Positions 43,085 to 63,799 of a stretch of 64,000 nt of DNA are shown here, piece after piece. The DNA lies in contig NZ_JAKVTV010000001.1 of the NCBI RefSeq assembly GCF_022489035.1, positions 930,001 through 994,000 on the forward strand, written 5' to 3'. The notes under the pieces are model-generated. The model saw nothing but the letters and a program-made list of their open reading frames with translations. It did not search any database and was not told the DNA's origin. Both the position numbers and the translations under genes were made by a program. This DNA is from Christiangramia lutea (GTDB taxonomy: Bacteria; Bacteroidota; Bacteroidia; Flavobacteriales; Flavobacteriaceae). Numbering within the stretch: the first letter of the stretch is position 1; the number at the start of each line of letters is the position of its first letter.

Positions 43085-43091
43085 AGTTGAA

Positions 43092-47200: not shown

Positions 47201-47230
47201 TTGGTTAACCAAACTGGTTTTTCAAAATTA
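47201..47230 (-). promoter_or_regulatory. Operator and -7 of gntR (autoregulation)
   Basis: The perfect palindrome TTGGTTAACCAA (47201-47212) is followed 13 bases on by the weaker CTGGTTTTTCAA (47214-47225). The latter overlaps a TAATTTTG -7 element (minus strand, 47223-47230). This fits a repressor blocking its own promoter. Confidence 0.65.
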
Positions 47231-47289
47231 GGAAAATTTTCTTAGTTCAGGATTAAAGTGTTCTGCTAATTCAAAACTCATAAGTTTTA

Positions 47290-47323
47290 TTGATTCCGCC
47301 AATATTAAATTTAGCGGAATCAA
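47290..47323 (-). terminator. Hairpin behind susD
   Basis: A perfect ten-base stem (TTGATTCCGC/GCGGAATCAA) with a 14-base loop, 33 bases after the susD stop. The tail is not T-rich, so it may act as a 3' protective structure as well as, or instead of, a terminator. Confidence 0.6.
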
Positions 47324-47355
47324 TGATGGCTAACTCCATTCAAACCCTTCTAGAA

Positions 47356-48693
47356 TTAACTTCCTTGATAGCCAGGATTTTGGGTAATAACCCCATCACT
47401 GGCCAGGATTTCTGATATTGGAATAGGAAACACAAAATAATTTGGATCTACAGATTCTTCTAATTCCTGGTTAACCGTACCTGTTCTTACCAAGTCAAAC
47501 CATCGTTGCCCTTCAAAAGCTAATTCCAGTCTTCTTTCTTCATAAATAGCTTCCCTTACCGAGGCCTGTGTGTTCAGATTATTATGATCTAACGGGTTCA
47601 AGCCTGCCCTTTCCCTTATGGGATCCAGTAGATCCAGAACTTCTTCTGCAGGGGCACCATTTTCATTTAAAGATTCAGCATATAAAAGAATAACATCGCC
47701 CAATCTTAATTCTATCCAGTCATGATCTGGCCCACCAGTTTGCGGATATTTAGGAGAAGCCATTAATTCTTCGTCTATCACTACACCTCTTCTTAATGTA
47801 TCTTCCACTTCTCCACTTTCTTCAAAAGCAGTTATTAGATCTGGATCCAAAGGCATAAGGGCTTTAGTATCTAAACCTCCGTACCAGGACCAGAATTCTG
47901 ATTCTGGATATTCATCTGTAATTGAACTCGAAATTTGTGTGGCAAAAATAACTTCGGAATTAAGATCATTTTCAAATCCAAAGATATCGCCATAATTTTC
48001 CTGTAAGGATATTCCAGCTCCAGAGGCCCCATTGATAACTTCAGCGAGTAAAGGTTCTGCACTACTAAAATCACCTCTTTGTATATGAGCTTTTGCTAAC
48101 ATCCCCTGGGCAGCAATTTTGGTTGCTCTACCATTTGATAATCCAGAATTATCCAAATTAGCTATTGCATCCAGGAAATCTGGAATGATTATGTTGTCAT
48201 AAATATTTGCTACCGGTTGTCTTTCCAGAATAGATTTATCTGTAGTACTGGGTGAAGCAGATAGATTTACTGGAACATCCCCAAATACCTTGACCAATTT
48301 GAAATAAGATAAGGCTCTTAAAAATTTTGCTTGCCCTATATGACTTGTATTTGTGGAGTTTTCAATTACATTATTGGCGCTTAAGATCGATTTGTATAAA
48401 GCCGAATAAAACGGTCTAAAGAATTGATCTTCCATAACAACGATATCACCGTTAAACCTATCAAAAGAAGGGTAAGGTTCTTCGTCCATCAACGCATTAT
48501 CTGCTCTAAAATCTCCCATGACAGCTAAAGGAGTAACTGAACCATGCTGATAATAATATGCAGCATTTAATACTCCCTCAAAATCTTGCAATGAATTTGA
48601 TTTAGCTATGTTTGGCGGATTTTGATCTAAATCACTTTCACAACCTACAGCTACTAGAATTACCACTAATAATAATTTATATACTGTTTTCAT
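47356..48693 (-). CDS. SusD-like glycan-binding lipoprotein
   Basis: Outer-membrane lipoprotein that binds alginate oligomers and caps the SusC channel. The signal peptide ends at a lipobox (VAVGC, cysteine 18), followed by SDLDQNPPN, the usual start of SusD proteins. TPR-like helices appear around SHIGQAKFLRALSYFKLVKVFGDVP, and the conserved C-terminal REAIYEERRLELAFEGQRWFDLVRTG is intact. It has 445 residues and lies 10 bases downstream of susC. Confidence 0.95.
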   Translation of the reverse strand: MKTVYKLLLVVILVAVGCESDLDQNPPNIAKSNSLQDFEGVLNAAYYYQHGSVTPLAVMGDFRADNALMDEEPYPSFDRFNGDIVVMEDQFFRPFYSALYKSILSANNVIENSTNTSHIGQAKFLRALSYFKLVKVFGDVPVNLSASPSTTDKSILERQPVANIYDNIIIPDFLDAIANLDNSGLSNGRATKIAAQGMLAKAHIQRGDFSSAEPLLAEVINGASGAGISLQENYGDIFGFENDLNSEVIFATQISSSITDEYPESEFWSWYGGLDTKALMPLDPDLITAFEESGEVEDTLRRGVVIDEELMASPKYPQTGGPDHDWIELRLGDVILLYAESLNENGAPAEEVLDLLDPIRERAGLNPLDHNNLNTQASVREAIYEERRLELAFEGQRWFDLVRTGTVNQELEESVDPNYFVFPIPISEILASDGVITQNPGYQGS

Positions 48694-48703
48694 TTTTCAA
48701 TCT

Positions 48704-51700
48704 TTAAAAATTAACATTCAAACCAAATGTAAAACTCCTTACAATCGGACTTGCTCCCACCTGAACACCGTAGGTAGTAGGTCCTAAATAACCATCATTG
48801 GTAATTTCAACACCTTCCGGATTAAAAGAGGTGTAATCATCAGACCATAAGTATAATAAGTTTGATGCCGCAACATATACTCTCACAGTGTTTAACCCCA
48901 CCTGGCTCATGATTTCACGATCTAAGGTATAACCTAAAGTTAGGTTCCTTAAAGCAACATAAGAAGCATCTTGCACCTGCGCATCTAATTGATTTCTAGA
49001 CTGGGTGTAGAATTCACCATTATGATCAGCTATACCATCACCGTTAGCATCAAAACTATCCATTACTCTTCCTCCAAATTCTGAATTGTAATAAATGGGA
49101 TCTACATTAAATATATCTCCTCCCTGAGAACCCTGGAATTGGAAAGACATATCAAATGCTTTAAATCTCATTTGGCTATTAAGACCCCAGTAAAAATCCG
49201 GGGTATTCTGACCAATCTTCACAAGATCTCCACCTTCTTCAACAGTCCTGGTTCTATCGATCACACCGTCACCGTTTTGATCTACCACGTAATATTCTGA
49301 ACTGTTTACACCTATAGCCCTGGTTGGATCTTCTATAAATCTATCTTCTACTATACCGATAGTCTCTAATCCCCACATCTCACCAATCTCTCCGCCTACA
49401 TAATTTCTAAACACAGGACCTCTACCACTCTGGCCGTAAATAACCTGTGGTAATTCGTCCAAGCCACCTAGATCTGTGATTTCAGTCTCTACTGTAGAAA
49501 GATTGGCTCCTAATGTCCAGGTGAAATCATTCTCATAGTCCTGAATAACAGCCCCAGATAATTCAAATTCCAAACCTGAACTCCTAACGTCTCCAGAATT
49601 TAGACGTATGGAAGTGGTACCCAGAACTTCAGAAACACTTTGATTAATTAAAATATCTTCAATATCTGAAGTATAATAATCTGCACTGAATCTTATTCGG
49701 TTATCAAAAAACCCTAGATCTATACCATAGTTGGTTTCTGTATTTGTTTGCCAGGTTAAGTTATCGTTCGCTACATCAGCTGGAATTAAATACGCATTTC
49801 CTAGTACCGAAGCCTGAGGATTTAACAGACTTAATGAATTGTAAGCCCCTAAATCTGAGGTTGTTCCTAATGACCCTGTACTAAACCTTGGCTTCAATGT
49901 ACTCAATAACTCAGAATTCCAGAAAGCTTCATTATGTACATTCCAACCTAAAGAAAGAGCCGGGAATGTCTCAAATTTATTGTTCTTGCCAAATCTCGAG
50001 TCACCATCTCTTCTCACTGAAGCCGAAAACAGGTAGCGATTATCATAGGCATAATTAACCCTACCAAATACACTCCTTCTGGAAATGGTTTCATCCCTTT
50101 CAGTTACCTGAATATCAGCAGGATCCAAAAGGTTGTAGTTTATAATATCTCCAAAAGGTACATTGGTTCCATTAAGGGAGTTTCCTCTGGTATAAAGATT
50201 TTGAAATTCAAGACCAGCAACAGCAGATATATCATGCTTACCTATAACTTTATTAAAGTTTAAGGTAGTCTCACTTAAAATTGAAGACCTTTTTACATCT
50301 GTCTGGTCTAAATTTGTTTGATTTGAACGCGCCCTGGAATCAAATTCAAGTCCTCTCCAGAAATAGTCTTGAGTGTCCCTGATATCTGCCCCCAAGACGG
50401 TTTTAATATTCAAACCTTCCAAAATAGCATATTCTAGATAAGAAGTGATATTTGCGAAATACGTTTTTTGATAACGGTCTGTATTATCAAGTTTCGTTGC
50501 TGGTCCCGCATCACCAGATCCACCAATACCATTACCACTTCTACCATAATGCCATTCCTGTGCCGTATCACCCGGTTCTAAAGTATAAATACTATTATTA
50601 AATGGAGCGTCACCTCCTCTATAACCAGCATCAAACGGATCCAGCCCTAAAGATTGCGCTTGTTGATCTAATTGCTGAACGAATGCTATTGATGCTTCCG
50701 TATGATAAATAGGATGTATATTATAGGCTCTTATAAGGTCCCTCATATCCCATCCTACCATATCTCGTTTAGAGGCAAATCCGTTGAAACTTACTCCGGC
50801 TTTAAATTTATCACCCAATTTTGTATCAACATTCAAACGTGCATTTACTCGTTCAAAGGCCTGATCTAATACGATACCTTCAGTATTCTGGTAACCAACT
50901 GAAGCGAAATAATTAGCATTTTCACTACCACCACTCATGCTAAAGTCATGGTTATTACTATATCCATTTTTGAAAAGCCAGTCTTCTACTGCCACTACAT
51001 CTGGAGCATTAGCATAGGCATTGATCTTATAATCTACAAAGGCTGGGTCTAATTGGGAAACATCATATCTGCCGCTGGCAATACCTTCCTCTAAAGTATT
51101 CGCCCATTCTCCAGCTGTCATATTTATATTATCATTTTTATATCTACTTGATATACTTACGTAACTATTATAGCTGAAAGTAGGCTTTCCTTCTTTTCCT
51201 TTTTTAGTTGTTACCAGTATAACCCCATTAGCTCCCCTTGAACCATAAATAGCAGCAGATGCAGCGTCTTTCAAAACTTCGATACTTTGAATATCATTAG
51301 GGTTTACCGTTGCTAAACTTCCTGAAATGGGATACCCGTCAACTACAATTAAAGGATCTGAGTTTCCATTGATCGAAGATGCTGCTCTAACCTGAATTTT
51401 TGGATCAGCACCCGGAGCTCCATCCTGATTCTGAATTAAGACACCAGATAATTTACCACCGAGGGCTTCATCCACCCTGGTTGCCTGAATTCCCGCTACA
51501 TCATCACCATCTACCTGCGCGATGGCACCAGTTAAATGTGATTTTTTACGGGAACCGTACCCTATTACCACAATATCATCCAACTGCTCTGAACTTGAAA
51601 CAAGTTCTACATTCTGGATTTCTTGTCCATCTACTGGGATCTCTTGGTTTTCAAATCCCAAATAGGAGAATAAAAGAACGTCACCCGGAACTACATCGAT

Positions 51701-51889
51701 TTCGTAATTACCATCAAAATCGGTTACTACGCCCGTATTAGTTCCTTTAATAAATACATTCACACCACCCAGGGGGATATTATCATCCTGCGAAGTTACA
51801 TTTCCGGAAAGCGAATAACTTTCCTGAGCAATTAAAGATAAATGGCATAAAATCGCCATCATAAAAATTGCTGTGGTTTTCCAATTCAT
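48704..51889 (-). CDS. SusC-like TonB-dependent outer-membrane transporter
   Basis: Imports alginate oligomers with energy from TonB. It has 1061 residues: signal peptide ending SLIAQ, a carboxypeptidase-regulatory-like domain (YSLSGNVTSQDD ... VLLFSYLGFENQ, about 25-100), the plug domain with LDDIVVIGYG as the TonB-box region and IEVLKDAASAAIYGSRGANG, then a 22-strand barrel ending in SFTFGLNVNF. It starts a two-gene unit with susD. The leader from the likely promoter to the ATG is about 265 bases. Confidence 0.96.
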   Translation of the reverse strand: MNWKTTAIFMMAILCHLSLIAQESYSLSGNVTSQDDNIPLGGVNVFIKGTNTGVVTDFDGNYEIDVVPGDVLLFSYLGFENQEIPVDGQEIQNVELVSSSEQLDDIVVIGYGSRKKSHLTGAIAQVDGDDVAGIQATRVDEALGGKLSGVLIQNQDGAPGADPKIQVRAASSINGNSDPLIVVDGYPISGSLATVNPNDIQSIEVLKDAASAAIYGSRGANGVILVTTKKGKEGKPTFSYNSYVSISSRYKNDNINMTAGEWANTLEEGIASGRYDVSQLDPAFVDYKINAYANAPDVVAVEDWLFKNGYSNNHDFSMSGGSENANYFASVGYQNTEGIVLDQAFERVNARLNVDTKLGDKFKAGVSFNGFASKRDMVGWDMRDLIRAYNIHPIYHTEASIAFVQQLDQQAQSLGLDPFDAGYRGGDAPFNNSIYTLEPGDTAQEWHYGRSGNGIGGSGDAGPATKLDNTDRYQKTYFANITSYLEYAILEGLNIKTVLGADIRDTQDYFWRGLEFDSRARSNQTNLDQTDVKRSSILSETTLNFNKVIGKHDISAVAGLEFQNLYTRGNSLNGTNVPFGDIINYNLLDPADIQVTERDETISRRSVFGRVNYAYDNRYLFSASVRRDGDSRFGKNNKFETFPALSLGWNVHNEAFWNSELLSTLKPRFSTGSLGTTSDLGAYNSLSLLNPQASVLGNAYLIPADVANDNLTWQTNTETNYGIDLGFFDNRIRFSADYYTSDIEDILINQSVSEVLGTTSIRLNSGDVRSSGLEFELSGAVIQDYENDFTWTLGANLSTVETEITDLGGLDELPQVIYGQSGRGPVFRNYVGGEIGEMWGLETIGIVEDRFIEDPTRAIGVNSSEYYVVDQNGDGVIDRTRTVEEGGDLVKIGQNTPDFYWGLNSQMRFKAFDMSFQFQGSQGGDIFNVDPIYYNSEFGGRVMDSFDANGDGIADHNGEFYTQSRNQLDAQVQDASYVALRNLTLGYTLDREIMSQVGLNTVRVYVAASNLLYLWSDDYTSFNPEGVEITNDGYLGPTTYGVQVGASPIVRSFTFGLNVNF

Positions 51890-52007
51890 AAGATTTCATT
51901 TAATTAAATTAATAATTCAACCTAACCAAGTAGAGTTCATTGCCCAGCCAAGAATTGGCAACCAAAATGCTTTTTTAAATTACTTATGAATTGGTATCTT
52001 TGCAATA

Positions 52008-52103
52008 CTTGTCAATTTTAAGTAATTCGACATTAGTTTAAATAACTTCTCTCTATGAAGTTTGATTTTAAAGGATAGGCGTGCACCTATCCTTTATTTT
52101 TTT
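52008..52103 (+). ncRNA. Predicted small RNA antisense to the susC leader
   Basis: On the plus strand a TATCTTTG -7 element (51995-52002) is followed about 70 bases later by a perfect ten-base hairpin (AAAGGATAGG, 52070-52079, paired with CCTATCCTTT, 52086-52095) and a T-run. No open frame of note lies between. The T-run is only on this strand, so the hairpin ends a plus-strand transcript of about 95 bases. It would be fully complementary to the susC mRNA leader. No good -33 element is seen. Prediction only; no expression data. Confidence 0.45.
52070..52103 (+). terminator. Intrinsic terminator opposite susC leader
   Basis: The stem AAAGGATAGG/CCTATCCTTT with a six-base loop and a T-run (52097-52103) is a strong terminator on the plus strand, although no plus-strand gene is annotated upstream of it. 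Confidence 0.75.
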
Positions 52104-52126
52104 ACCATTCTTAACCACACTTTTAA

Positions 52127-52191
52127 TTGGTTATCCAAATTGGTTTCCCAAACTGGTTTACCAAATATAACCGGTTTTTATTGTTAAACAA
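52127..52191 (-). promoter_or_regulatory. Promoter and triple operator of susC-susD
   Basis: On the minus strand TTTG, 19 bases, TATATTTG (-7 at 52162-52169) is a full consensus promoter. Three 12-base palindromic sites, TTGGTTATCCAA (52127-52138), TTGGTTTCCCAA (52140-52151) and CTGGTTTACCAA (52153-52164), follow at 13-base steps and the first overlaps the -7. This suggests repression by the GntR/FadR-type regulator. Other than this array and the antisense RNA, I see nothing in the 568-base gap 51890-52457. Confidence 0.75.
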
Positions 52192-52457: not shown

Positions 52458-52835
52458 TTAATTGGTTTTATCCCCAAAATAGGATACCCCGCCACCACTT
52501 AAAAAATCCTCCCTAACCGGACTAAAGGTGTCAATCAACATTCCTTCCTCCAGGCAAACTGCACTATGCATTAAATTTGGTTCGATATATACACCGTCTC
52601 CTGCCTCTACAATTTTCTTTTCTCCATCAATTTCAAATTCAAATTTTCCGGAAACACAATAAGTAGCTTGGGTATGAAAATGTTGATGAGGTGAACCCAA
52701 TGCCCCTTTTTCAAATTTCACTTGCACCATCATGATTTGGTTATCGTAACCTAAAAACTTTCTTGATACACCTCCTCCAAGTTCTTCCCATTCCATGTCT
52801 TTTGTGATGATGTACTTTTCGCTAAATCGTTTCAT
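52458..52835 (-). CDS. kdgF: Cupin protein, KdgF-like
   Basis: A 125-residue single-domain cupin. Metal-binding motifs are GSPHQHFHTQATYCVSGKFE (about 47-66) and GDGVYIEPNLMHSAVCLE (about 79-96). In pectin and alginate users KdgF speeds conversion of unsaturated monouronates to their linear keto form (DEH). Its place 20 bases after the exolytic PL17 lyase gene supports that role. Sequence-only calls on cupins are weak, so context carries most of the weight. Confidence 0.8.
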   Translation of the reverse strand: MKRFSEKYIITKDMEWEELGGGVSRKFLGYDNQIMMVQVKFEKGALGSPHQHFHTQATYCVSGKFEFEIDGEKKIVEAGDGVYIEPNLMHSAVCLEEGMLIDTFSPVREDFLSGGGVSYFGDKTN

Positions 52836-52855
52836 AATTTTAAATTTCTTTGTTT

Positions 52856-55114
52856 TTATTTATAATAATATGGACCTGTCCATTTATAGCCAATATCATT
52901 TATGGTTATATTATGTGTTGCATCCTTAGCAGCATTGGTATTTGCTGTAATAAAAAAGGTGGTATTTCCCTTTACATTGGTAATGGAAATACCAGTATAA
53001 TCTTCAGTGTCTAAAACAACTTTTAAGTTCTTAATATTACTTTTTGAATTCCATGCAGACTCAGAAACCGGACTGTAACTACCATGGGATTCTATGGCCG
53101 AAACAAAAGTTGTATTCGTGCAATTTTTCCTTCTCAATATCAAAGCCGGATCTCGTCTTAAATTAAATTCTGGATCGTTGGCCCCAATTCTTGTAAATAA
53201 AAATTCATCGTTACTATTTGTTACTATAGTCAGAATATAAAAAGTGTTGTTATTGAACCATGAGAATTTGGAATAATCAGCATCTCTTTTTGCCGAAGCT
53301 TCAAGATATAAATGTTGGTATCCGTTTTCATTTCCTAAAGGTTTCAAAATTTCCGGTGTTTTGTATTCAAAGCTTGTTTGAAGAATTTGTCCGAAGTAAT
53401 AAAACGGCAAGTCGTATTGATTGGCTGAAGTTGAATTAATCTTCATAATATCCAGCATGAATGGTTTTTCATAATCTTCACCATTTAAAATTGCCATGGT
53501 ACGAAGCATCTCAGTTTCTGGATATGCATTGATTTCCTTTGCGCTTACCACTTTTACATTATCATTTTCCACATAAAAATAATGCAAGTCTGAATGATGT
53601 TTACTTCCCTTCTCATAATCAGCATTAAAATGAGAAATTTCATTTTGAATTACCGTATTATGGGCTATGCTTTGTTTTGCCCAACTAGAGTTTTCTTTTA
53701 GGTAGTTCCCTCCCCCTTTCTGTTCGATATTCACAAATCTAGCAAGACCATAATCCTGGATAATTTCATCACCTTTTTCAAAGAGCGAAAAGGATAATTT
53801 GTCATAATGACCGTGACTTGATCCCTGCGCGGTATACTTAAATACCAGTTCCAGGTCACCCTGCCTAAGAATGGCAACTCCTCCTTGATCTCCTTTTGGT
53901 CCATCAGTTAAATTAATTGATGTTTTCTGGTAAGGCTTTTCCTTTCCCTTTTTGATACTTAATGCAACTGAAAATCCTGAATCATCTAAAAGTACCTGCC
54001 CCTGTTCTTTGGCTATACTCAAAAAGCCGGCTGCATCATCACTATTATGATATGCTATATCCACTGCCGTTACTAATTCCCTCGAATAATAAGACATCCC
54101 TTTCTGAGCGTCATTCAACGGGAAAAATTCCCCATCGGCATCGGTTAGATTTAATAATGTCTGTACTGCTTTAAGTAGCACACCGTTTTTATAATTAAAG
54201 ATTTCTAATTCTGGCTTTTTATTTTGAAGACTTTGTGCAAAAATTAAAAAGGGGTACATAGCATATCGCTGATAATAAGGACCCTCTGTATAATATCCAT
54301 CAGGTGAAAAAGGTTCTTCTATATTCGCCAAAAAACCTGCTTTACCATCCTTGTTAATAAATCCTCCGTCATCATCCTTAGCTGTTTTATCCAGGTTAAT
54401 ATTTTTAATCCCATATAGAGCACGGTGGATCAGGTCATCATCGTTCATAACCAAACCAATCATACCCACAGCTGCATTTCCCCAGGTACTGTGATTATGA
54501 ACCCGATTGAAAAATTGAGGATTACCAATCGAAATATAATCTGCGAAGGGTCTGAAAAGATTTGACTCTAGTTTGTAGCGTTCTTCTTCAGAAAGGTAAT
54601 TGTAAACGCAGTCGTAAGCCTGACTAACATAAACCAGCCAGTTAGCATCGTTTAAACATTGCCAGAATAACTTGCCACGGGCATAGGAGCGTGTTTTAGG
54701 ATGCTGAGGTAATGTTTTATATAATGCTTCATATTGCATCAACATATCCTTTACATACTTGGCATATTTTTCATCATTCAAAATCTGATAAAGGACGCCA
54801 GCCTTTTGAATTACCAGAAAATTTCGTTTATGCCTTTCATGGGTATATCCACCTGAATAATCTTCTGGTACCGGTGTATCAATCCCTTGTGAAATTTCGG
54901 CATCAATTTCTGCTTTTACCTTTTCCAGCGTTTCATCAAAAAGTGGAATACTGCCCAGATGCGCCCTGATTTGTTTTACGCCCTCTTTGGTAAGAATAAG
55001 ATTGGGATGTTCCTGATCACTTGCAGCATCAGAATAATAATCAGAACCCTGACTAAAGCAGACCGCTATAAAAGAAAGATAGAAAAACAGAAAAAAAATA
55101 AATTTTCGCCTCAA
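52856..55114 (-). CDS. PL17 oligoalginate lyase (exolytic), exported
   Basis: Cleaves alginate oligomers to unsaturated monouronates in the periplasm. A signal peptide (LRRKFIFFLFFYLSF...FSQ) leads into a helical toroid with NRVHNHSTWGNA (Asn/His, about 207-211) and YTEGPYYQRY (tyrosines, about 275-284), then a beta-sheet heparinase II/III-like domain with GSSHGHYDKLSF. The start is uncertain: TTG at 55114 is preferred by its spacing to the operator, which equals that of the PL6 gene; TTG at 55132 lies inside the operator. Cupin and PL17 form one unit. Confidence 0.9.
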   Translation of the reverse strand: MRRKFIFFLFFYLSFIAVCFSQGSDYYSDAASDQEHPNLILTKEGVKQIRAHLGSIPLFDETLEKVKAEIDAEISQGIDTPVPEDYSGGYTHERHKRNFLVIQKAGVLYQILNDEKYAKYVKDMLMQYEALYKTLPQHPKTRSYARGKLFWQCLNDANWLVYVSQAYDCVYNYLSEEERYKLESNLFRPFADYISIGNPQFFNRVHNHSTWGNAAVGMIGLVMNDDDLIHRALYGIKNINLDKTAKDDDGGFINKDGKAGFLANIEEPFSPDGYYTEGPYYQRYAMYPFLIFAQSLQNKKPELEIFNYKNGVLLKAVQTLLNLTDADGEFFPLNDAQKGMSYYSRELVTAVDIAYHNSDDAAGFLSIAKEQGQVLLDDSGFSVALSIKKGKEKPYQKTSINLTDGPKGDQGGVAILRQGDLELVFKYTAQGSSHGHYDKLSFSLFEKGDEIIQDYGLARFVNIEQKGGGNYLKENSSWAKQSIAHNTVIQNEISHFNADYEKGSKHHSDLHYFYVENDNVKVVSAKEINAYPETEMLRTMAILNGEDYEKPFMLDIMKINSTSANQYDLPFYYFGQILQTSFEYKTPEILKPLGNENGYQHLYLEASAKRDADYSKFSWFNNNTFYILTIVTNSNDEFLFTRIGANDPEFNLRRDPALILRRKNCTNTTFVSAIESHGSYSPVSESAWNSKSNIKNLKVVLDTEDYTGISITNVKGNTTFFITANTNAAKDATHNITINDIGYKWTGPYYYK

Positions 55115-55120
55115 AATTAA

Positions 55121-55149
55121 TTGGTTTACCAAATTGGTTTACCAATATA
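55121..55149 (-). promoter_or_regulatory. Double operator and -7 of the PL17-kdgF unit
   Basis: Two identical TTGGTTTACCAA palindromes (55121-55132 and 55134-55145) at a 13-base step overlap a TATATTGG -7-like element (minus strand, 55142-55149), one base off consensus. The lyase start follows within 20 bases. Confidence 0.7.
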
Positions 55150-55210: not shown

Positions 55211-55981
55211 CTACATATTGTATACTCCACCATTAATGTCTAGTGTGGCACCAGTGATAAAGCCGTCATATTCAGAAGCTAAAAATAAAACTGCACGGGC
55301 AACATCATCTGCATTCCCGGCGCGCTCAATAGGTATTCCTTCTATGGTTGCGGCAGCAGATTCTTTCGTGGTATGTGTATCATGGAATGAAGTTCCCAGA
55401 ATAAGTCCCGGTGCAACCGCATTTACACGTACACCTTGTGTGCCAATTTCTGTAGAAAGCGCCCTGGTAAAAGTTAAGATTGCGCCTTTACTCGTTGCAT
55501 ATGCCAGGGAACCCGGATGCCCACCTTTTCTACCTGCAAGTGATGCTAAATTTACAATACTACTATTGCTATTCCTGACCAAATAAGGTACCGCAGCTCT
55601 GGTTACCAGCATCATCGATGTAAGATTAATATCCATCACTTTATCCCAGAAATCTGTTTGTATTTCGGCTAACATTTTACGCTCTACGAGTGAACCTGCA
55701 TTATTTATAAGAATATCTATTCCACCTAAAGCCCTTACAGTTTCTTCAATTAATTTTTTGGCATCAGCTTCTTTTGTAAGATCTCCAGAAATAGCAACAG
55801 AATTTACCTTTTTAGCCGCAGCATAGGAAGCTAATTGGTTTGCGGTATCTGCACTGGAAAAATAGTGTATTGCTACATTTGCCCCGCTATCTATAAAGTG
55901 TTTCGTTATAGCCTCCCCAATTCCCTGCGCACCTGCGGTAATAAGTACATTCTTACCTGATAGTTTTGTTTTTTCTTTCAT
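55211..55981 (-). CDS. SDR-family oxidoreductase
   Basis: A 256-residue short-chain dehydrogenase. The cofactor loop is TAGAQGIGEA (about 15-24), the active site YATSKGA with Ser in NLASLAGRKGG. Its ATG overlaps the stop of the PL7 gene (ATGA), so it is translated with that lyase. Like the SDR at 44178 it may reduce DEH to KDG, or act on another uronate-derived compound; with two SDRs in the locus the two may differ in cofactor or substrate. No firm assignment. Confidence 0.78.
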   Translation of the reverse strand: MKEKTKLSGKNVLITAGAQGIGEAITKHFIDSGANVAIHYFSSADTANQLASYAAAKKVNSVAISGDLTKEADAKKLIEETVRALGGIDILINNAGSLVERKMLAEIQTDFWDKVMDINLTSMMLVTRAAVPYLVRNSNSSIVNLASLAGRKGGHPGSLAYATSKGAILTFTRALSTEIGTQGVRVNAVAPGLILGTSFHDTHTTKESAAATIEGIPIERAGNADDVARAVLFLASEYDGFITGATLDINGGVYNM

Positions 55982-57093
55982 GATTTATCATTTTTTGTGA
56001 AATACTCTTCATTAGAAACGGCCTTATCACTCACAGTTATACGAGCATCCCTAAACCATACTTCAGCATAGTTTCCGTCTGCATATTGTTTTTCCAGATC
56101 TCCGTCATGGGTTTCTGCTCCAGAACACCAGTTTCTATTCTCCGAGGGTGATTTCCCATTAGTTTGATTGTAAGAACCTAACTTAAAGAAACACCCTTCT
56201 CCCGCGTATGCATTTTTACGTTCCACACCATCCTGACCAATGGGAACGAATAGTTCCTTAGTTTGTTCTGGAATATCAGTAGATTTTGAAAATTCAGATT
56301 CAATCAGGTTTTTGGTAAATGTCTTGGTTTCATGGCCTTCACTTGTGAATTTTAAATTCATAATCCCGTTCTTCACTTCAATTTCGTAACTGAATTCTTC
56401 ACCTAATTCAATACCATTCTCTGGTTCTTCAGGATATGTATTTTCACTTGAGCCAATCACTGAAAAGTCATGTCCCCAAACTGGTGTAGAAAAATCCCAT
56501 CTTTTGGAGTTATCATCACCTGCGGTATTGATCTCGTAATGCCAGAATACCGATCCTTTAGAGTGTCCAGGAAATTTTTTGTAAAAAATTTTCAGTGGTT
56601 CATTCTCATGGCCATCGGCACTATGAATCTGGCCAACCACTACCGAGTATGATGCTGCTACACGGGCATCGCCGGTAGAGGAGACATTCATAACCTTAAG
56701 AGTTGCCTCCAGTTTATCATCTGCGGTAGCGGGATACCATTTTTTAATCTGAGCCAGTTCTGTCCGGGTATTATTAGAAGTACCATGAGTATCTCCGGCA
56801 TTTGGAGTCTTAAAAACTACCCAATCCCCAGAATCATCTGTAGCAGTATAAAAGAAGTTCTCGTCTTCAAAATTATTTGCGATACCAGCATTTGAACCAT
56901 CTCCCAATATTAATTTCCAATGATCGAAAAATGGAATAACCTCACTGGGGTAAACAGTTTTATTAGATTCCTCTTCATCTTTACTAACTTCAGTGGAAGT
57001 AGTATTTGCATTTTTGATTTTATCATTACAACTACTACCACTTAAAATTAGTAGAGCCCCAAAAATTATTGATTTGATTTTATGATTTTTCAT
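55978..57093 (-). CDS. PL7 alginate lyase, lipoprotein (first copy)
   Basis: Endolytic alginate lyase, likely anchored at the outer membrane. The lipobox is SGSSC (cysteine 22), then an acidic linker (30-47) and the PL7 jelly-roll with RTEL (110-113), QIH (155-157) and FFKLGSYNQ (302-310), the three motifs that build the PL7 active site. It has 371 residues. The protein at 60368 shares these motifs and long blocks such as NEPLKIFYKKFPGH, so the two are paralogs. Its gene is coupled to the SDR by ATGA. Confidence 0.92.
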   Translation of the reverse strand: MKNHKIKSIIFGALLILSGSSCNDKIKNANTTSTEVSKDEEESNKTVYPSEVIPFFDHWKLILGDGSNAGIANNFEDENFFYTATDDSGDWVVFKTPNAGDTHGTSNNTRTELAQIKKWYPATADDKLEATLKVMNVSSTGDARVAASYSVVVGQIHSADGHENEPLKIFYKKFPGHSKGSVFWHYEINTAGDDNSKRWDFSTPVWGHDFSVIGSSENTYPEEPENGIELGEEFSYEIEVKNGIMNLKFTSEGHETKTFTKNLIESEFSKSTDIPEQTKELFVPIGQDGVERKNAYAGEGCFFKLGSYNQTNGKSPSENRNWCSGAETHDGDLEKQYADGNYAEVWFRDARITVSDKAVSNEEYFTKNDKS

Positions 57094-57193
57094 AATATTT
57101 CATTTAAATTTTTTTTGAAATTGATTCAAATATTCGATCATCTAGAATGAAGCATAAAACTTAAACCACACAGCTTTTCATATCATTTAAGTA

Positions 57194-58468
57194 TTAAAAA
57201 TACTCCATTAAAGCCAGGATCCCATTGTACGAAATTACACAGGCAAAGAGCAATGAGGCGAAAAGCCCTATATTCACAAATAAGCCAGTCTTATATTCTT
57301 TCATTACTTTTTTACTGTTCACTAATATTATAATTCCGAGTATTACTAAGGGTAATACGAAGACATTAAAAACCTGGGATAGAATCTGAATCTCAATAGG
57401 GTTTGCACCGAAGACGGGTCCAATTAAAGCGACCAAGCAGGCAATAAATGTTATTATTCTGAATTGTTTGGAACTCGTATCTAATTCTCCGGACTGATAA
57501 TCTGCAATTAATAAGGGAGCAATCAATAAACAGGGAAAAATGGAAGATAGACCGGCACTCAGTGCTCCAAAAAAGAAGATGGTCACTGCCCATCTTCCAG
57601 CTACTGGCTCCAGAGTATTTGCCATATCCAGTACTTTAGTCACTTCTTTCCCTTCATAGAATAACGCGCCGGCAGCAACAGCCATAATAATACCGCTGAT
57701 CACAAATATTAAAATAGCGGCGGTTATGGAATCCTTTTTCTGTTGGTCTAAATTTTTAATTGTCCACCCTTTTCCCTTTACAAAGAGAGGACGCGAAAGA
57801 AAGGTTGCTGAAGCCATGGTGGTCCCTACAAAAGCAGCGACTAACATTTTACCTCCCGGCACATCTGGAATTGTTGGGATCATTCCTTTAACCACATCCA
57901 ATGGTAGAGGTTGTACAAAAAACAGGGATAACATGAAAGATAACCCCATAAGAGTTACAAAAATGACCAGGATCTTTTCAAAAAAAGTGTACTTCCCTAC
58001 TAAAAGGAGCAAATAGAAAACTAAAATTATAACAATAGCTGTAATTAGAACAGTTTCATATTCATAACCTCTTAAACCCGTAAAATTAAGTGCCAGAATT
58101 TCGAAAATAATATTAGAGGATATCCCCAGGATTCCCATAAGAGAGTTCCATTGCCCAAAAGTGACGCCAATTATAATTAATATCCCAAGCGCTTTACCGA
58201 ACTTCAAATGTTTCTTGAATCCAAATAGAGCAGTTTCCCCCGTTATCAAAGCGAAATTACCATAGGCAAACATTAATATTCCTGAAAACAGGCAGCTAAG
58301 CAATAACACCCATAGTAATTCCATATTGAATTTACTACCCGCTACGATCATAGAGGTAACACTACCAGTACCAATAGTATATCCAATTGCAAAAATACCC
58401 GGGCCAAAACCTAAGATGATGGCAATAACTTTTTGTAAAAATGATCTATTATTTGCGGTAGCATCCAT
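57194..58468 (-). CDS. NRAMP-fold membrane transporter lacking metal-binding motifs
   Basis: A 424-residue protein with about eleven helices and the overall NRAMP pattern. The first helix reads GPGIFAIGYTIGTGS (22-36) where metal transporters have the DPGN motif, and the sixth has FVGTTMASATFLSRP (213-227) in place of the methionine-proline-histidine motif. The metal ligands are therefore missing, so metal transport is unlikely. Between the GntK-Gnd fusion and a PL7 lyase, it may carry a sugar acid or another alginate product. That assignment is inference. Confidence 0.8.
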   Translation of the reverse strand: MDATANNRSFLQKVIAIILGFGPGIFAIGYTIGTGSVTSMIVAGSKFNMELLWVLLLSCLFSGILMFAYGNFALITGETALFGFKKHLKFGKALGILIIIGVTFGQWNSLMGILGISSNIIFEILALNFTGLRGYEYETVLITAIVIILVFYLLLLVGKYTFFEKILVIFVTLMGLSFMLSLFFVQPLPLDVVKGMIPTIPDVPGGKMLVAAFVGTTMASATFLSRPLFVKGKGWTIKNLDQQKKDSITAAILIFVISGIIMAVAAGALFYEGKEVTKVLDMANTLEPVAGRWAVTIFFFGALSAGLSSIFPCLLIAPLLIADYQSGELDTSSKQFRIITFIACLVALIGPVFGANPIEIQILSQVFNVFVLPLVILGIIILVNSKKVMKEYKTGLFVNIGLFASLLFACVISYNGILALMEYF

Positions 58469-58488
58469 GATTCTGAATTATTGTTTCT

Positions 58489-60375
58489 CTATTGCTCCCA
58501 GGAGGTATGGTGATTTTTTCCAGATTCGTCGTCGATCCTTTTGTAGGTATGCGCTCCAAAATAATCTCGTTGCGCCTGGATAATATTAGCAGTGGAATAA
58601 GCTGTTGTAATTCCATTAAAAAACTGAACCGATTCGCTAAATGCCGGTGTCGTAATATCTTTGAGCAAACATTCTGAAACTACTTTTTTTACTGATGGTC
58701 TAGCTTTATTTAGCTTTTCAATTAATTGGGGATTGGCCAACAGGTTAGAAGTCTCTTTATGGATTTCAACCAGATCCCGCATTAAATCAGATTTGATAAT
58801 ACAGCCGCCTGTCCAGATCCTTGAAATTTCACTTAGATTTAAATCCCATGAATATGATCTTGAAGCTTCTTCAATAATTTTGAAACCCTGATAATGATTT
58901 ATAATCCTTGCAAATTGGTAGGCTTCCAATATTTCATTTGTACTAATATTCAATTGTGAATCGTTAACCTTTCCAAAGGTTTTATTCAATAAAAGGCGTT
59001 CTTCTTTATAGAACGATATGAATCTTGAAAATAAGGCGGAAGCAATTAATGTGCATGGCACCCCAAGTTCTGCTGAAGCAATAGTCGTCCAGTTGCCTGT
59101 CCCTTTATTGCCGGCTTTGTCTAAAACCTTCTTCACTAACCAATCTTCACCTTCTTTTTTCCTCAAAATTGTTACGGTGATACCTAACAAATAACTATCA
59201 GCTGTCTCTTTCCATCTTTCCAAACTATCAGCAATCTCATCTGGAGTTTTACCTAATCTCTCTAAAATAGCAGATACCTCAGCTAATAATTGCATTTCTA
59301 CATATTCAATCCCATTATGAACCATTTTCACAAAATGACCGCTTCCTTCCGGTCCTATGTAGGTACAACATGGCAAGTCTTTCCAATCTTTAGCCGATAT
59401 ACTTTCAAGGTAAGGTTGTACCAGTTGGTATGCCTCTCTATCTCCTCCAGGCATAATGGATGGCCCAGATAAAGCACCCTCTTCTCCTCCTGAAATTCCT
59501 GTGCCTATAAAGTGAATATTTTTTGTTTTTAAATATTCTATACGTTCTTTAGTCTTTTTATAATTTGAGTTTCCGCCATCAATCAGGATATCATTTTCAG
59601 ATAAATGAGGTAGCAGATCTTCTATCACATGATCAATTGCTTTTCCTGCATTTACCATGAGCATGATTTTTCTTGGTTGTTCCAATGAATTCACAAAAGA
59701 AGAAATATCATCGAAAGCAGATGCATTGGATAATTCCGGAAATTGGGCTTTAAAATCTTTAGCAACATTTTCTTCCACACCATCTACATGCCTGTTAAAG
59801 ATTGAAATTCTGAAACCATTATTTGCCAGGTTTCTGGAAAGACTTTTTCCCATAACACCCAGACCAAACAATCCAAATTCTGAAGTTTCCATAAATTCGC
59901 TTTTTATAATTTGAGTAATTTGAGATGGAGTTAAACTTATATCCAGTTTTAAGGCTTCCTCAGGTTCTTCCAAAATCTCGAATTGGGATTCCAGTAAATT
60001 TGAAGGCATAAAATGATCTGTTCTATTCTTTACCCTTTCGAATATCTGCTCATAGGAACCTGACAAATAAATCCATTTCACCTGGTTTAAAAGGCCCCTT
60101 CTTAAAGTTTCACGATATTTTTGTTTTAAAGCTGAACAAACAATAATGCAACTGGATTCTTTGATTTTTCCCTTAGCGAACTTATTTAAAGCCTCTAACC
60201 ATTCATGCCTATCGTCATCATTCAATGCGCGACCACCAGCCATTTTTTTGATATTAGATTCAGGATGAAAATCATCTCCGTCAAAATATGGGATCTTCAA
60301 GTCCTGCGCTAGCAATTTTCCTATAGTGCTTTTACCACTACCCGAAACACCCATGATATAGATAATCTTATTCAT
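58489..60375 (-). CDS. Fusion of gluconokinase and 6-phosphogluconate dehydrogenase
   Basis: A 628-residue two-domain enzyme. Residues 1-161 are gluconokinase (P-loop GVSGSGKST 9-17, FDGDDFHPESN, LNDDDRHEW). From Met162 a complete decarboxylating 6-phosphogluconate dehydrogenase follows: GLGVMG cofactor loop, LIDGGNSNY, GTGISGGEEGALSGPS, GHFVKMVHNGIEY, WTGGCIIKS and AHTYKRID. The fusion would channel gluconate to ribulose 5-phosphate and carbon dioxide with NADPH. Its gene overlaps the PL7 gene upstream by eight bases. No frameshift or stop lies between the domains. Confidence 0.9.
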   Translation of the reverse strand: MNKIIYIMGVSGSGKSTIGKLLAQDLKIPYFDGDDFHPESNIKKMAGGRALNDDDRHEWLEALNKFAKGKIKESSCIIVCSALKQKYRETLRRGLLNQVKWIYLSGSYEQIFERVKNRTDHFMPSNLLESQFEILEEPEEALKLDISLTPSQITQIIKSEFMETSEFGLFGLGVMGKSLSRNLANNGFRISIFNRHVDGVEENVAKDFKAQFPELSNASAFDDISSFVNSLEQPRKIMLMVNAGKAIDHVIEDLLPHLSENDILIDGGNSNYKKTKERIEYLKTKNIHFIGTGISGGEEGALSGPSIMPGGDREAYQLVQPYLESISAKDWKDLPCCTYIGPEGSGHFVKMVHNGIEYVEMQLLAEVSAILERLGKTPDEIADSLERWKETADSYLLGITVTILRKKEGEDWLVKKVLDKAGNKGTGNWTTIASAELGVPCTLIASALFSRFISFYKEERLLLNKTFGKVNDSQLNISTNEILEAYQFARIINHYQGFKIIEEASRSYSWDLNLSEISRIWTGGCIIKSDLMRDLVEIHKETSNLLANPQLIEKLNKARPSVKKVVSECLLKDITTPAFSESVQFFNGITTAYSTANIIQAQRDYFGAHTYKRIDDESGKNHHTSWEQ

Positions 60376-61420
60376 TGTTTTTATTTGGAGGAACTCCAGG
60401 ACCTACGGTTGCTTCCCTAAACCAAACTTCAGCATAGCTTCCTTTCTCGTATTGCTTCGCTATATCTCCTCCATAAATTTCAGATCCTGTGCTCCAAACG
60501 AGGTTGTCTTCCGGACTTTTACCATTGGTTTGATTATAAGCCCCCTGTTTAAAAAATTGTAACTCACCAGAATAAGCTTCTTCTCTTTCCACACCATCAC
60601 GGCCTATGGATCCATATAATATTCTTACCTGTTCAGGCATATCTGCTTTATTGGAATATTCAGATTTCTTTAAATTTTTTGTGAATGTTCTGGTTGGATG
60701 CCCTTCACTGGTAAAGCTTAAATACATAATGCCATCATAGACATTTACTTCATATCTAAATTCCTCCCCCAAGGCAATTCCGTCTTCCGGTTCTTCCGGA
60801 AAAGTATCTGGAGTATTTCCAACTTTAGAAATATCATATCCCCAAACTGCATTTGAATATCCCCATCTACCAGAATTATCACCTTTGGTATTGATCTCAT
60901 AATTCCAGAATACGGAGCCTTTTTCATGACCAGGAAACTTTTTATAAAAAATCTTTAGAGGTTCATTTTCGTGACCTTCATCGCTATGAATCTGTCCAAC
61001 CACTACAGAATATGATGCTGCAACCCTGGCATCTCCAGAAGTTGAAACATGTTGAACTTTGAGTGTACCGGTTAATTTACCTCCTTCTTCCGGCGTCCAG
61101 CGTGATTTTTGACCCAGTTCTGTTCTGGTATTGCTTGAATTTTTTGAGGTAATTCCGGCATTTGGAGTTTTATAGACTACCCAATCAATATCTCCGTCTT
61201 CTTTTACATAAAAGAAATTATCCTTTTTAAAATTAACCAGATCTTCCTTGCGCGTTCCGTCTCCTAAAAGGATGGTCCATTCATCCATAAATGCAATGAC
61301 ATCACTAGGGTATTTAGTTTCCTGTGCCTTAGGTTCGCTATCGCTCGCAATCTTTTCTTCCTGATTTTTACAGCTAGCCAACACAAGTATTGAGATGATG
61401 AATAAAAACTTTATTTTCAT
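60368..61420 (-). CDS. PL7 alginate lyase, lipoprotein (second copy)
   Basis: Endolytic alginate lyase with lipobox LASC (cysteine 17), so probably surface- or outer-membrane-bound. Active-site motifs RTEL (99-102), QIH (about 143-145) and FFKQGAYNQ (about 290-298) are intact. It has 350 residues and starts seven bases after the PL6 stop. It is close to the PL7 at 55978 over the whole catalytic domain; the acidic linker and N-terminus differ. Confidence 0.92.
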   Translation of the reverse strand: MKIKFLFIISILVLASCKNQEEKIASDSEPKAQETKYPSDVIAFMDEWTILLGDGTRKEDLVNFKKDNFFYVKEDGDIDWVVYKTPNAGITSKNSSNTRTELGQKSRWTPEEGGKLTGTLKVQHVSTSGDARVAASYSVVVGQIHSDEGHENEPLKIFYKKFPGHEKGSVFWNYEINTKGDNSGRWGYSNAVWGYDISKVGNTPDTFPEEPEDGIALGEEFRYEVNVYDGIMYLSFTSEGHPTRTFTKNLKKSEYSNKADMPEQVRILYGSIGRDGVEREEAYSGELQFFKQGAYNQTNGKSPEDNLVWSTGSEIYGGDIAKQYEKGSYAEVWFREATVGPGVPPNKNNE

Positions 61421-61426
61421 AACTAT

Positions 61427-63739
61427 TTAGTACATTAATTTTTGTTTCAAGTTTTCCTCTACCTTGATCTCTCCAGAATTTTTAATTGTATTATTCACCG
61501 GTTCCTGCCCCTTGGCACCCCACAATATGGCAATGTATTTCACCGGATTATTGAGAAAGGTATTGTTTGCTAATTCAAGGTTTACAATACCCCGGGTTCT
61601 TAACAGAACTTCCGTTTCTTGAGCAACCCCAGAGTTTTTAACCGTATTACCTTTAAATATTAGCGTCCCTCCTATGGTAGATTCATCATAGCCTCCACGG
61701 TAATAATTTAAAACCTCTGTACTTATATTTTCAAATGAAGAATTTTTGATAATAACGAATTCAGCATTGTACTCTCCTTTATCATCGATTTCCTCTGCTA
61801 GGCTAAGGCCTCCCTTAAGGTTTTTAAACTTTGAATCGGCAATCGAAATCGTATCAGCAAAGGAACCTTTAGAGACCTGAAGCAACTCACTAAAATCAGA
61901 TACCTCAGAGCCTTTGATCCATAGGTTGTAAGCAACAGACATATTATCATCCAGGGTTTGGAAAGCATTCATTCTTGAATTTCCCTGAAGTATAACATCC
62001 TGAATTTTTAGACTGGCTTTTGGTTTCAGTTTAAAAGCTGAAGAAAGGTTGGTTTCGCTAAAATCTAATATTGCTTTATCTGACTTATTTTGAGATCTAA
62101 TGATAATTCCTTTTGAAATACTAATGGAACTTTCAAATTTATAATCCCCTTCGGCTAGTTCCAGGATGTCTCCAGCTTCAGCCTCCTCCAGTTTCCTGAG
62201 AAATTCCGTTGAAGTAGATACCCTTAAAGTTTTTCCTTTTTTACCAATAATTTCAGGCTGAAACCATTTAGGGCCATAATTCTCCTGTTTAAAAAGGTTT
62301 ACTTGTTCCGCTACAGGTAACTTAAACGCTCCCGGACTGTTATTTCCAGTACGATCCCTGCCTAAAAGATCTTTATCGATTTTTTCGAAATCAAAACCAT
62401 GATATGTAACATTAAAATCATGTTCCGGTACATATAAATATTCCGAAATCTTTTTAATCTTAAAGTCCTTCCTAACTATCCCACTGTCTTGAACTGAACC
62501 TTTATTTTCGTAGTTAAGAATGTTATTTTTAAAGGTTACACCGTCAACCGTGTCATAAGCTACGATCGGACTTTCTTGGACCTTCTCATTGTAAACTAGA
62601 TTATTGGCCATTAACACTCTTTCAGGCCTTGCCGATCGAATCTCAGAAGCAGGTAACACTCCAGCCTGGTCGGTATTTGAACCAACACTAAAATGCCAGG
62701 GAGATTTCGTGTCTACAAAAGAATTATAAGCGGCGACAACATCGGTCACCTGATTATACCGATTTAAAGGAGACTTTGGAATTCCATTCATCACCGCGAG
62801 GGGACTTCTAAATTCAGTTCCTTTAAGTTTGTAAAAATAATTGTTGGTAATCCAGTGCCCGGTATTTATAACACGAATTCCACCAATAAATTCAGAATTG
62901 TCATTCCCGATAAAAATGTTTCCATCAATGCTTGCATAATTTCCATGCCTCAGCACTAAAGACCCTTCAGACTCAAAGAATACGTTATTTTTGAAGGTAT
63001 TGAAGTTGGATTTACTAGATATAATCTCTACCTCACCGTTGCACCTGTAAAATAGGTTATCTGCGATATTTACATAAGCAGGAGTCATTGAAGTCTCACT
63101 GGACCCGATTTGAATGGTTTCAGCATGAGGTCCTCCTTTTCTAGGTCGAGGACCGAAGTAATTATGAACTATTTGATGATGGGTATTAATGTTTTCATTG
63201 CCCTTGAGGTAAACTCTCAAAGTTGGGCCGGAGTTTGATTTTCCGGCAATGTAAGAATGGTCCAACTGATTATTTCTACCCCAGAATTCAATCCAACGAT
63301 CCTGAGTTTCCCTGCTTGGCTGAGTAAAACCTTCTATTACACAGTTAGTGACCCTGGAATTATTTGCTATATGGTCGTTATCAACCTTGAAATCTATAAC
63401 AGTATTATTAGGTGTATAACCGTTCTGAAAAATTAATCCCTCCACAACGATAAAATCACCACCAATTTTTAAGAATGATTCGCCTTCGATGAATACCTTT
63501 CCCTTCTCCTCGGCCATGATTACGATAGGCAGGTTTTTTTCTCCATTGGCTATGATTTGAATTCCTACATCTGTCCATTTTCCATTGGCCATAATTATTG
63601 TATCCCCAGGATTCGAATTTCCCAAAGCCTCTTCCAGCTCAGATAAATTCTTGACCCGTATAGATAATGAGTCATTACTATTTTGAGCAGATCCCCCAAG
63701 GGAAAAAAGAAAGATTAAAAATATCGAAAGAATTCTCAT
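61427..63739 (-). CDS. PL6 alginate lyase, exported
   Basis: Parallel beta-helix lyase of the chondroitinase B/PL6 family that cuts alginate, often at MG or G blocks. From the ATG at 63739 it has 770 residues: signal peptide (MRILSIFLIFLFSLGGSAQ), N-terminal helix with GPRPRKGGPHAETIQIGSS, the Brønsted base lysine in EIISSKS (238-244) and the arginine in LRHGN (263-267). A second beta-helix-like region follows from about residue 490. The longer frame to 63757 starts inside the operator and is less likely. It heads the PL6-PL7-gntK/gnd-NRAMP run. Confidence 0.93.
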   Translation of the reverse strand: MRILSIFLIFLFSLGGSAQNSNDSLSIRVKNLSELEEALGNSNPGDTIIMANGKWTDVGIQIIANGEKNLPIVIMAEEKGKVFIEGESFLKIGGDFIVVEGLIFQNGYTPNNTVIDFKVDNDHIANNSRVTNCVIEGFTQPSRETQDRWIEFWGRNNQLDHSYIAGKSNSGPTLRVYLKGNENINTHHQIVHNYFGPRPRKGGPHAETIQIGSSETSMTPAYVNIADNLFYRCNGEVEIISSKSNFNTFKNNVFFESEGSLVLRHGNYASIDGNIFIGNDNSEFIGGIRVINTGHWITNNYFYKLKGTEFRSPLAVMNGIPKSPLNRYNQVTDVVAAYNSFVDTKSPWHFSVGSNTDQAGVLPASEIRSARPERVLMANNLVYNEKVQESPIVAYDTVDGVTFKNNILNYENKGSVQDSGIVRKDFKIKKISEYLYVPEHDFNVTYHGFDFEKIDKDLLGRDRTGNNSPGAFKLPVAEQVNLFKQENYGPKWFQPEIIGKKGKTLRVSTSTEFLRKLEEAEAGDILELAEGDYKFESSISISKGIIIRSQNKSDKAILDFSETNLSSAFKLKPKASLKIQDVILQGNSRMNAFQTLDDNMSVAYNLWIKGSEVSDFSELLQVSKGSFADTISIADSKFKNLKGGLSLAEEIDDKGEYNAEFVIIKNSSFENISTEVLNYYRGGYDESTIGGTLIFKGNTVKNSGVAQETEVLLRTRGIVNLELANNTFLNNPVKYIAILWGAKGQEPVNNTIKNSGEIKVEENLKQKLMY

Positions 63740-63745
63740 ATTAAA

Positions 63746-63799
63746 CTGGTTTACCAATTTGGTTTACCAAATATAGACTTAATTATGAGTTTTCCAAAA
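63746..63799 (-). promoter_or_regulatory. Promoter and double operator of the PL6 operon
   Basis: TTTTG, 19 bases, TATATTTG (-7 at 63768-63775, minus strand) is a full consensus promoter. The palindromes CTGGTTTACCAA (63746-63757) and TTGGTTTACCAA (63759-63770) lie at a 13-base step, the second overlapping the -7. The ATG follows about 22 bases after the expected start site. The 200 bases beyond, up to 63940, show nothing further. Confidence 0.78.

Follow-up and report, generated by a model that had tools for sequence, protein, structure and literature searches.

In a 64,000-base stretch of the genome of the marine bacterium Christiangramia lutea (positions 930001-994000 of contig C1, in an assembly of 3.47 Mb and 31 contigs), hereafter the window, four promoters of an alginate utilisation locus carry copies of a 12-base unit, TTGGTNNACCAA, set in tandem at exact 13-base steps and beginning on the -7 element. 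These arrays are probably the operators of the AusR-type repressor encoded within the same locus (46465-47175, minus strand), which would block the -7 element, stack as dimers every 13 bases and adjust the dosage of repression through copy number. The layout of the sites, their register with the -7 element, their co-occurrence with the regulator and the link between step and regulator clade can be read directly from the compared sequences, and the 13-base spacing seems to go with the repressor. A system of this kind, an AusR-type repressor with multi-copy operators, has been described before.

Results

Tandem units at four promoters

A first-pass annotation of the window had described 12-base palindromes at exact 13-base steps, one strong and one weak at gntR (here ausR), three at susC and two each at the PL17 and PL6 genes, and a scan of the window confirmed every site. 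All lie on the minus strand, as do the -7 elements, which were read from the sequence. At ausR, the strong distal unit TTGGTTAACCAA (47201-47212) is preceded by a weak unit (47214-47225) that has three mismatches to TTGGTNNACCAA and a degraded left half-site, and that overlaps the -7 element TAATTTTG (47223-47230); this order, weak unit first and strong unit second, recurs in related loci. Upstream of susC, the promoter-proximal unit 1 (52153-52164) is followed by units 2 (52140-52151) and 3 (52127-52138), and the -7 element TATATTTG (52162-52169) has its TTG in common with unit 1. The PL17 promoter has two exact units (unit 1, 55134-55145; unit 2, 55121-55132) and a -7-like element, TATATTGG (55142-55149), that departs from the canonical TTTG, while the PL6 promoter has TATATTTG (63768-63775), an exact unit 1 (63759-63770) and a unit 2 (63746-63757). 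The Bacteroidota -7 consensus is TANNTTTG.

The overlap with the -7 element that had been claimed thus holds at all four promoters, each time through the promoter-proximal unit. The description as palindromes needs qualification: the outer five plus five bases are symmetric, but the central TT/AA breaks the symmetry. The units head four inferred transcription units. The proposed four-promoter regulon is supported, and so is the presence of sites at the regulator's own promoter.

Step, register and copy number in related loci

The arrays were compared with the best 80 of at least 339 related stretches, picked by regulator similarity (81 loci with the window), and with 299 genomes of the family and 395 of the class; the three samples overlap one another, so that their counts are not independent. 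Among units with at most one mismatch and no more than 80 bases apart, the 80 loci hold 167 pairs: the distance is 13 bases in 127, 26 in 39 and 71 in a single pair. No pairs were seen among the 65 sites of the reversed motif, and five permuted motifs gave 0-2. In the family sample the 59 exact forward pairs all stand at 13 or 26 bases (47 and 12, respectively). The spacing within the unit is equally restricted, with the half-sites in the form TTGGT-N2-ACCAA found 112 times in the 80 loci, against 1-13 times for each other gap of 0-14.

To describe arrays and copies, 267 site groups from the 80 loci and the window were reduced to 160 (153 of them distinct) by keeping those outside longer open reading frames (ORFs) with a labelled gene no more than 400 bases away; the groups set aside were 83 singles and 6 doubles within ORFs, and 18 others. 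Additional copies were allowed up to three mismatches, a level that a random 12-mer passes at 0.6%. In 105 of 129 arrays of at least two copies, TANNTTTG stands at a single offset, -5 from the first unit, with the TTG shared; the background is 8 of 6120 other upstream positions. By gene, this register is found at 64/65 susC, 6/6 PL6, 10/10 PL7, 4/7 PL17 and 21/41 ausR arrays.

Units or arrays were found within 420 bases upstream of 74 of 81 susC starts and 59 of 83 ausR-type starts, and also upstream of PL17 (6/15), PL6 (5/11), PL7 (11/29) and, as single units, Nramp (2/34) starts. Over the same distance there were none at SusD (0/48), KdgF (0/59), MFS (0/77), KdgK (0/55), KdgA (0/55), LacI (0/15) or SDR (0/98; the two SDR queries overlap) starts. 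Copy number was then counted in one locus for each of 52 regulator clusters formed at 88% identity. At susC there are three copies in 32 clusters, four in 1, two in 12 and one in 1; at ausR, two in 26, one in 11 and three in 1. Two copies are present at PL17 in 7 clusters and at PL7 in 6, and PL6 has two in 2 and three in 2. Arrays of three or more copies mark susC (33/46) as opposed to ausR, PL17, PL7 and PL6 taken together (3/55; p 1e-12).

The tandem array as the genomic signal

Allowing two mismatches, the window holds 23 copies of TTGGTTTACCAA; shuffled sequence has 10.3 +/- 3.8, and none of 100 shuffles reaches 23; the looser TTGGTNNACCAA at the same tolerance shows no clear enrichment in the window (46 versus 36.5, with 7 of 100 shuffles reaching 46). 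At a tolerance of three mismatches, the 25-base tandem TTGGTTTACCAANTTGGTTTACCAA is found in four places of the genome, all within the alginate locus, and its reversed control in none. Single TTGGTNNACCAA units with at most one mismatch are not enriched genome-wide (137, versus 170 for the reversed control), and the single palindrome was consequently rejected as the signal. Exact units number seven in the genome (control 3), four of them in the alginate locus. The three outside have no promoter context of the kind seen at the locus arrays: two are within ORFs, and one is intergenic, without fusion to a -7 element, and adjoins what by eye is an apparent terminator hairpin. Because lone units are not enriched while tandems are confined to the locus, we take the 13-step tandem to be the signal. 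The idea that the palindromes are rarer elsewhere in the genome thus stands for tandem pairs but not for single units. A genome-wide search with the composite pattern TANNTTTGGTNNACCA at two mismatches was uninformative (433 places, 510 for the control).

Arrays and regulator occur together

A FadR-branch regulator had been said to be encoded inside the locus, and Pfam bears this out: the 236-residue product of 46465-47175 matches both GntR (60 bits, from residue 17) and FCD (87 bits). By tblastn it is 85% identical to its counterpart in the Christiangramia portivictoriae locus and 66-78% identical to those in the other 79 loci.

An exact pair, TTGGTNNACCAA-N(0-28)-TTGGTNNACCAA, was found in 42 of the 299 family genomes, and the reversed pattern in one. 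Orthologues of the regulator (best E <= 1e-60) are present in 74 of the 299, including all 42 that bear the tandem (Fisher p 2.7e-31). Similarly, an exact pair was found in 13 of the 395 class genomes (control 0), each of which belongs to the 17 that have an AusR-like gene (E <= 1e-30). A tandem with one mismatch in genome G677 is probably due to chance; no AusR-like gene was found there at E <= 1e-30, and the reversed control matches in 2 of 395 genomes.

Two genomes deserve separate mention. In G236 the AusR gene is present twice (61-63% identical) and the locus includes PL17 and PL6. Its 13-step arrays also head both PL6 genes of a second, separate locus, about 3.8 Mb distant in contig coordinates or 1.3 Mb in the other direction if the 5.07 Mb contig is circular. 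This combination is reminiscent of Zobellia, in which AusR is likewise duplicated. The arrays at these distant PL6 genes suggest that the regulon in that genome extends outside the polysaccharide utilisation locus (PUL). G266, from the window's own genus, has neither a regulator match nor an exact tandem pair, so that the alginate locus may be an accessory feature of this genus.

The step follows the regulator clade

AusR-like regulators from outside the window's family (41-51% identical) have the same 12-base unit. Their arrays mostly have other steps: among the 20 of 21 forward places listed, these are 15 (10), 30 (1), 14 (2), 16 (2), 22 (3), 27 (1) and 13 (1). Eleven of 17 loci around these regulators hold a PL6, PL7 or PL17 relative, indicating that most are alginate loci too. 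In a tree of 56 regulators, 12 of which carried no step label, the 32 regulators of 13-step loci (a step of 26 being counted as 13) lie on one side of a single branch (100/99), and none of 500 shuffles was as low. This tree was calculated without six long-branch or divergent rows and two E. coli outgroups; in the first tree, with all rows in, the 13-step group still lies on one side of a branch (98). The two step-22 regulators form a group of their own (100/97), while the ten with steps of 14-16 require two changes and are not one clade.

One regulator of genome G382, from another family, falls inside the 13-step clade, and two arrays with that step lie near it, upstream of Nramp and susC. A second regulator of this genome has a 14-step array at its own promoter, and 15-step arrays are present elsewhere in the genome. 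As different steps are found here in the same cell with the same polymerase, and as other steps also go with related regulators that share the unit, the simplest explanation is that the regulator reads the step. The centre of the unit also differs between the groups: it is AA/TT in 79 of 96 exact copies of 13-step arrays and CA/TG in 14 of 34 units in the others.

Relation to known regulators

The AusR regulon of Zobellia galactanivorans was reportedly described by Dudek et al. in 2020 (NAR 48:7786). AusR is a GntR repressor in the alginate PUL of that organism that represses most alginate genes and whose binding is prevented by alginate breakdown products (PMC7874173, PMC8286568). It binds promoters through single, double or triple operators (PMC7874173), and it is duplicated (PMC8073546). 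The system in the window is in a different organism but shares with it a GntR regulator, with a winged helix-turn-helix (wHTH) and an FCD domain, encoded inside an alginate PUL, and PUL promoters that seem to carry one, two or three operator copies. From its anatomy and its locus the regulator is probably of AusR type; the 80 compared loci include no Zobellia record.

The sites had also been assigned to the ExuR/UxuR type, and this holds for UxuR only. The distance between GT and AC is two nucleotides in the unit, as tabulated for UxuR by Suvorova et al. (PMC4494728), who give three for ExuR. E. coli sequence agrees, with two nucleotides for UxuR and three for PdhR and LldR; no site with at most one mismatch was found in the E. 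coli exu region at either distance. E. coli UxuR shares the TTGGT/ACCAA half-sites and the two-nucleotide centre, and units with one mismatch occur between gntP and uxuA as well as ahead of uxuR; these units are, however, single and scattered, and the protein is 30% identical to the regulator. By NCBIfam models the protein lies closer to LldR and NanR: it falls short of the equivalog cut-offs for UxuR (65/442 bits) and ExuR (57/396 bits), and LldR (120), NanR (114), PdhR and GlcC all score above these two, each below its own cut-off. In pairwise BLAST against three E. coli proteins the scores were 70 bits for UxuR, 67 for PdhR and 55 for ExuR.

The protein does fit the FadR subfamily of GntR regulators, by its Pfam matches and by a predicted structure with a wHTH and an all-helical FCD domain (predicted local distance difference test, pLDDT, 79; predicted template modelling score, pTM, 0.60). 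With this model as the query, Foldseek placed NanR (6on4) first, followed by the GntR-family structures 6az6 and 7u5q and DhdR 9jpj, with FadR itself (1e2x) at rank 26. E. coli NanR, also of the FadR subfamily, offers a precedent. According to PMC8012715, three NanR dimers bind cooperatively to (GGTATA)3 at a defined spacing, and binding weakens when the spacers are lengthened. Both systems have adjacent binding units at defined spacing; NanR, however, binds direct repeats, in which each dimer has one consensus half-site (PMC8012715), whereas the units here are full palindromes. Finally, Suvorova et al. (2015) describe weaker additional half-sites 7-12 nucleotides from the centre of FadR-subfamily sites, and the table of that study lists no Bacteroidetes FadR-subfamily proteins (PMC4494728). 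The next half-site in our arrays is centred at 9.5 nucleotides and is thus similarly placed, but here such half-sites have grown into whole tandem palindromes.

The alginate locus and the susC leader

The locus runs along the minus strand from the PL6-type lyase (from about 63739) to a 2-keto-3-deoxy-6-phosphogluconate (KDPG) aldolase (42413) and beyond, and contains two PL7 lyases, a PL17 lyase, SusC, SusD, a KdgF-like cupin, short-chain dehydrogenases/reductases (SDRs), a major facilitator superfamily (MFS) transporter and a PfkB kinase. PL6, PL7 and PL17 are the names we take to correspond to the matched Pfam families. The PL6-type lyase (61427-63739; Chondroitinas_B, 626 bits) has an inferred ATG start at about 63739, and transcription from its promoter would also cover an SDR, a PL7 lyase, an Nramp protein, a gluconokinase-6-phosphogluconate dehydrogenase fusion and the second PL7 lyase (55211-61420, by Pfam). 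The PL17-type oligoalginate lyase (52856-55111; Hepar_II_III_C and Alginate_lyase), with a TTG start inferred at about 55111, scores 660 bits with the NCBIfam model olalg_lyase, under the cut-off of 1400. It is followed by the cupin (52458-52835; Cupin_2), named KdgF-like from its context. The triple array heads the SusC-like TonB-dependent transporter (48704-51889; Plug and CarbopepD_reg_2), with the SusD-like protein (47356-48693; SusD_RagB) next to it. The MFS transporter, an SDR, the PfkB kinase and the KDPG aldolase (42413-46262, by Pfam) would be transcribed from the ausR promoter.

Gene content was compared among the 81 loci by tblastn, with flanks of at most 10 kb. The gluconokinase fused to 6-phosphogluconate dehydrogenase (58489-60375, minus strand) was found in the window alone (>80 bits). 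The Nramp-type metal transporter (57194-58468, minus strand) has relatives in 32 of the 81 loci, the window included. After the KDPG aldolase, a fructose-1,6-bisphosphatase and a LacI-type regulator follow (40356-42374, minus strand), with relatives in 4 and 14 of the 81 loci, respectively, again counting the window.

The susC promoters have further features in common. In 51 of 71, TTAAC is found at a distance of exactly 12 bases upstream of the -7 element (11 bases in 8 and 13 in 2), and 57 of the 71 do not have TTTG at 17-26 bases, a position at which TTTG is present in 11 of 11 PL7 promoters. The leader between array and susC has a median length of 279 nucleotides (26-321, 71 leaders; about 240 in the window) and contains a conserved, oriented hairpin, AAAGGAYRGG-TGCACG-CCYATCCTTT, whose window copy is at 52070-52095 (minus strand). 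A loose pattern finds it in 55 of the 71 leaders, with at least three matches of a similar test looking spurious. The hairpin is single-copy in its own genome (up to three mismatches) and present once each in 27 of 199 family genomes (control 0), all 27 of which hold an AusR orthologue. The copy in the window has a folding energy of -16.2 kcal/mol (z -5.6), and two others have z -3.0 and -3.3. In 39 sequences selected from those found, one position of the stem shows a compensatory change, pairing as A-U in 25 and as G-C in 13, and the position beside it is unpaired in 23; both pairing and the covariation score exceed those of all 500 shuffles, but the count of pair types does not exceed the shuffles and a slide by +2 yields an equal covariation score. 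A scan of 40000-64000 against Rfam gave no family at gathering score. The hairpin is possibly a leader RNA or, as an inverted repeat in DNA, a second operator of the alginate susC.

Discussion

We consider it probable that the arrays act as stacked operators. Each TTGGTNNACCAA unit would bind one dimer, and the dimer on the first unit, which is fused to the -7 element, would hide that element from the sigma factor. Further dimers would stack downstream at 13-base steps, each touching its neighbour; at 10.5 bases per turn, 13 bases correspond to 1.24 turns, so that each dimer would be turned by about 86 degrees relative to the next, and it is through the contacts between neighbouring dimers that the regulator may read the step. 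Copy number would set tightness, with three copies at susCD and two at PL17 and PL6, while a degraded first unit and one good unit at ausR would give looser autoregulation. By analogy with Zobellia, an intermediate of alginate breakdown would release AusR and turn on the four transcription units. Cooperative repression had been proposed from the layout; the case for it is now better motivated, as the step tracks the regulator clade, but cooperativity itself is still only inferred.

Several explanations compete with stacked dimers. An unlikely, though the most serious, alternative is that each unit is bound independently, with extra copies merely raising occupancy and the 13-base step being a frozen accident or a consequence of shared A/T flanks. 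The linker base is indeed always A or T (133 T and 53 A, n=186), as if longer sites shared their flanks, and single units are present at 18 of 59 ausR promoters. Yet no other spacing below 71 bases is found among the 167 pairs, despite varied sequence, gene and copy number, and in the tree the step changes along with the regulator clade. Less plausible still is that AusR acts on the everted junction ACCAA-N-TTGGT (lone form ACCAANTTGGT) as its functional unit, or that dimers can use either register, in which case n palindromes would offer up to 2n-1 overlapping sites. The junction occurs 69 times in the 80 loci, and the -7-overlapping unit at ausR keeps the half that faces the strong unit (right half exact in 21 of 26, left half in 2 of 26). 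Against this, 61 of the 69 junctions sit between full units, lone TTGGTNNACCAA units stand at promoters, and regulators with other steps retain the inverted unit and lose the everted junction.

The remaining two alternatives we regard as very improbable. Were the repeats RNA hairpins of the 5' leader, their location at or just past the expected transcript start would be accounted for, and all four arrays fold slightly better than shuffles; these z-scores (-1.27 to -1.60) are weak, however, and part of the first unit falls in the untranscribed -7 element, so this explanation was rejected. Equally, another regulator could own the sites, for example the LacI-type protein (40356-41330) encoded in the same run of genes. 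LacI relatives are found in so few loci (14 of 81, with flanks of at most 10 kb), compared with the arrays at susC starts (74 of 81), that we set this candidate aside; the GntR protein, by contrast, is present in every tandem-bearing family genome.

Some observations weigh against stacked AusR operators as proposed here. The -7 element matches TANNTTTG in just 21 of 41 ausR arrays, 24 of 83 ausR-type starts have no unit at the seed threshold, and neither do 9 of 15 PL17, 6 of 11 PL6 and 18 of 29 PL7 starts, some of which may be intra-operon. The absence of genome-wide enrichment of single units belongs here as well. Exact pairs are missing from 32 of the 74 family genomes with an orthologue, and from 4 of the 17 class genomes with an AusR-like gene; the presence of the regulator is thus no guarantee of a perfect array. 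One member of the 13-step clade, L187, which stands beside the G382 regulator on the tree, has single units alone. The central dinucleotide differs between groups too, and so spacing need not be what separates two regulators. Lastly, NanR owes its cooperativity to a 32-residue N-terminal extension (PMC8012715) that is missing here, where the GntR domain begins after only 16 residues.

The literature searched, which did not include the main AusR paper, yielded no report of a constant step and register, of a copy number that depends on the gene or of a step tied to the regulator clade, and a search with the letters of the motif returned, by title and abstract, only unrelated subjects (vaccines, wheat, stem cells and synaptic vesicles). 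We tentatively suggest, at somewhat less than even confidence, that AusR-type repressors, which share one 12-base unit across Bacteroidia, recognise their operators partly by phase: the dimers of each clade would lock together at a step of their own (13 for one clade and mostly 14-16 or 22 for the others), which may, together with the central dinucleotide, separate related repressors in the same cell, and copy number may set a conserved hierarchy in which the transporter is tightest and the regulator loosest.

In conclusion, the description of the AusR regulon is carried over from one system to the window and 80 related loci, with rules by which such loci can be read: fusion of operator and -7 element, a 13-base step, usually three copies at susC and a degraded first unit at ausR. 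The link between step and clade provides a natural experiment on how GntR/FadR dimers may cooperate.

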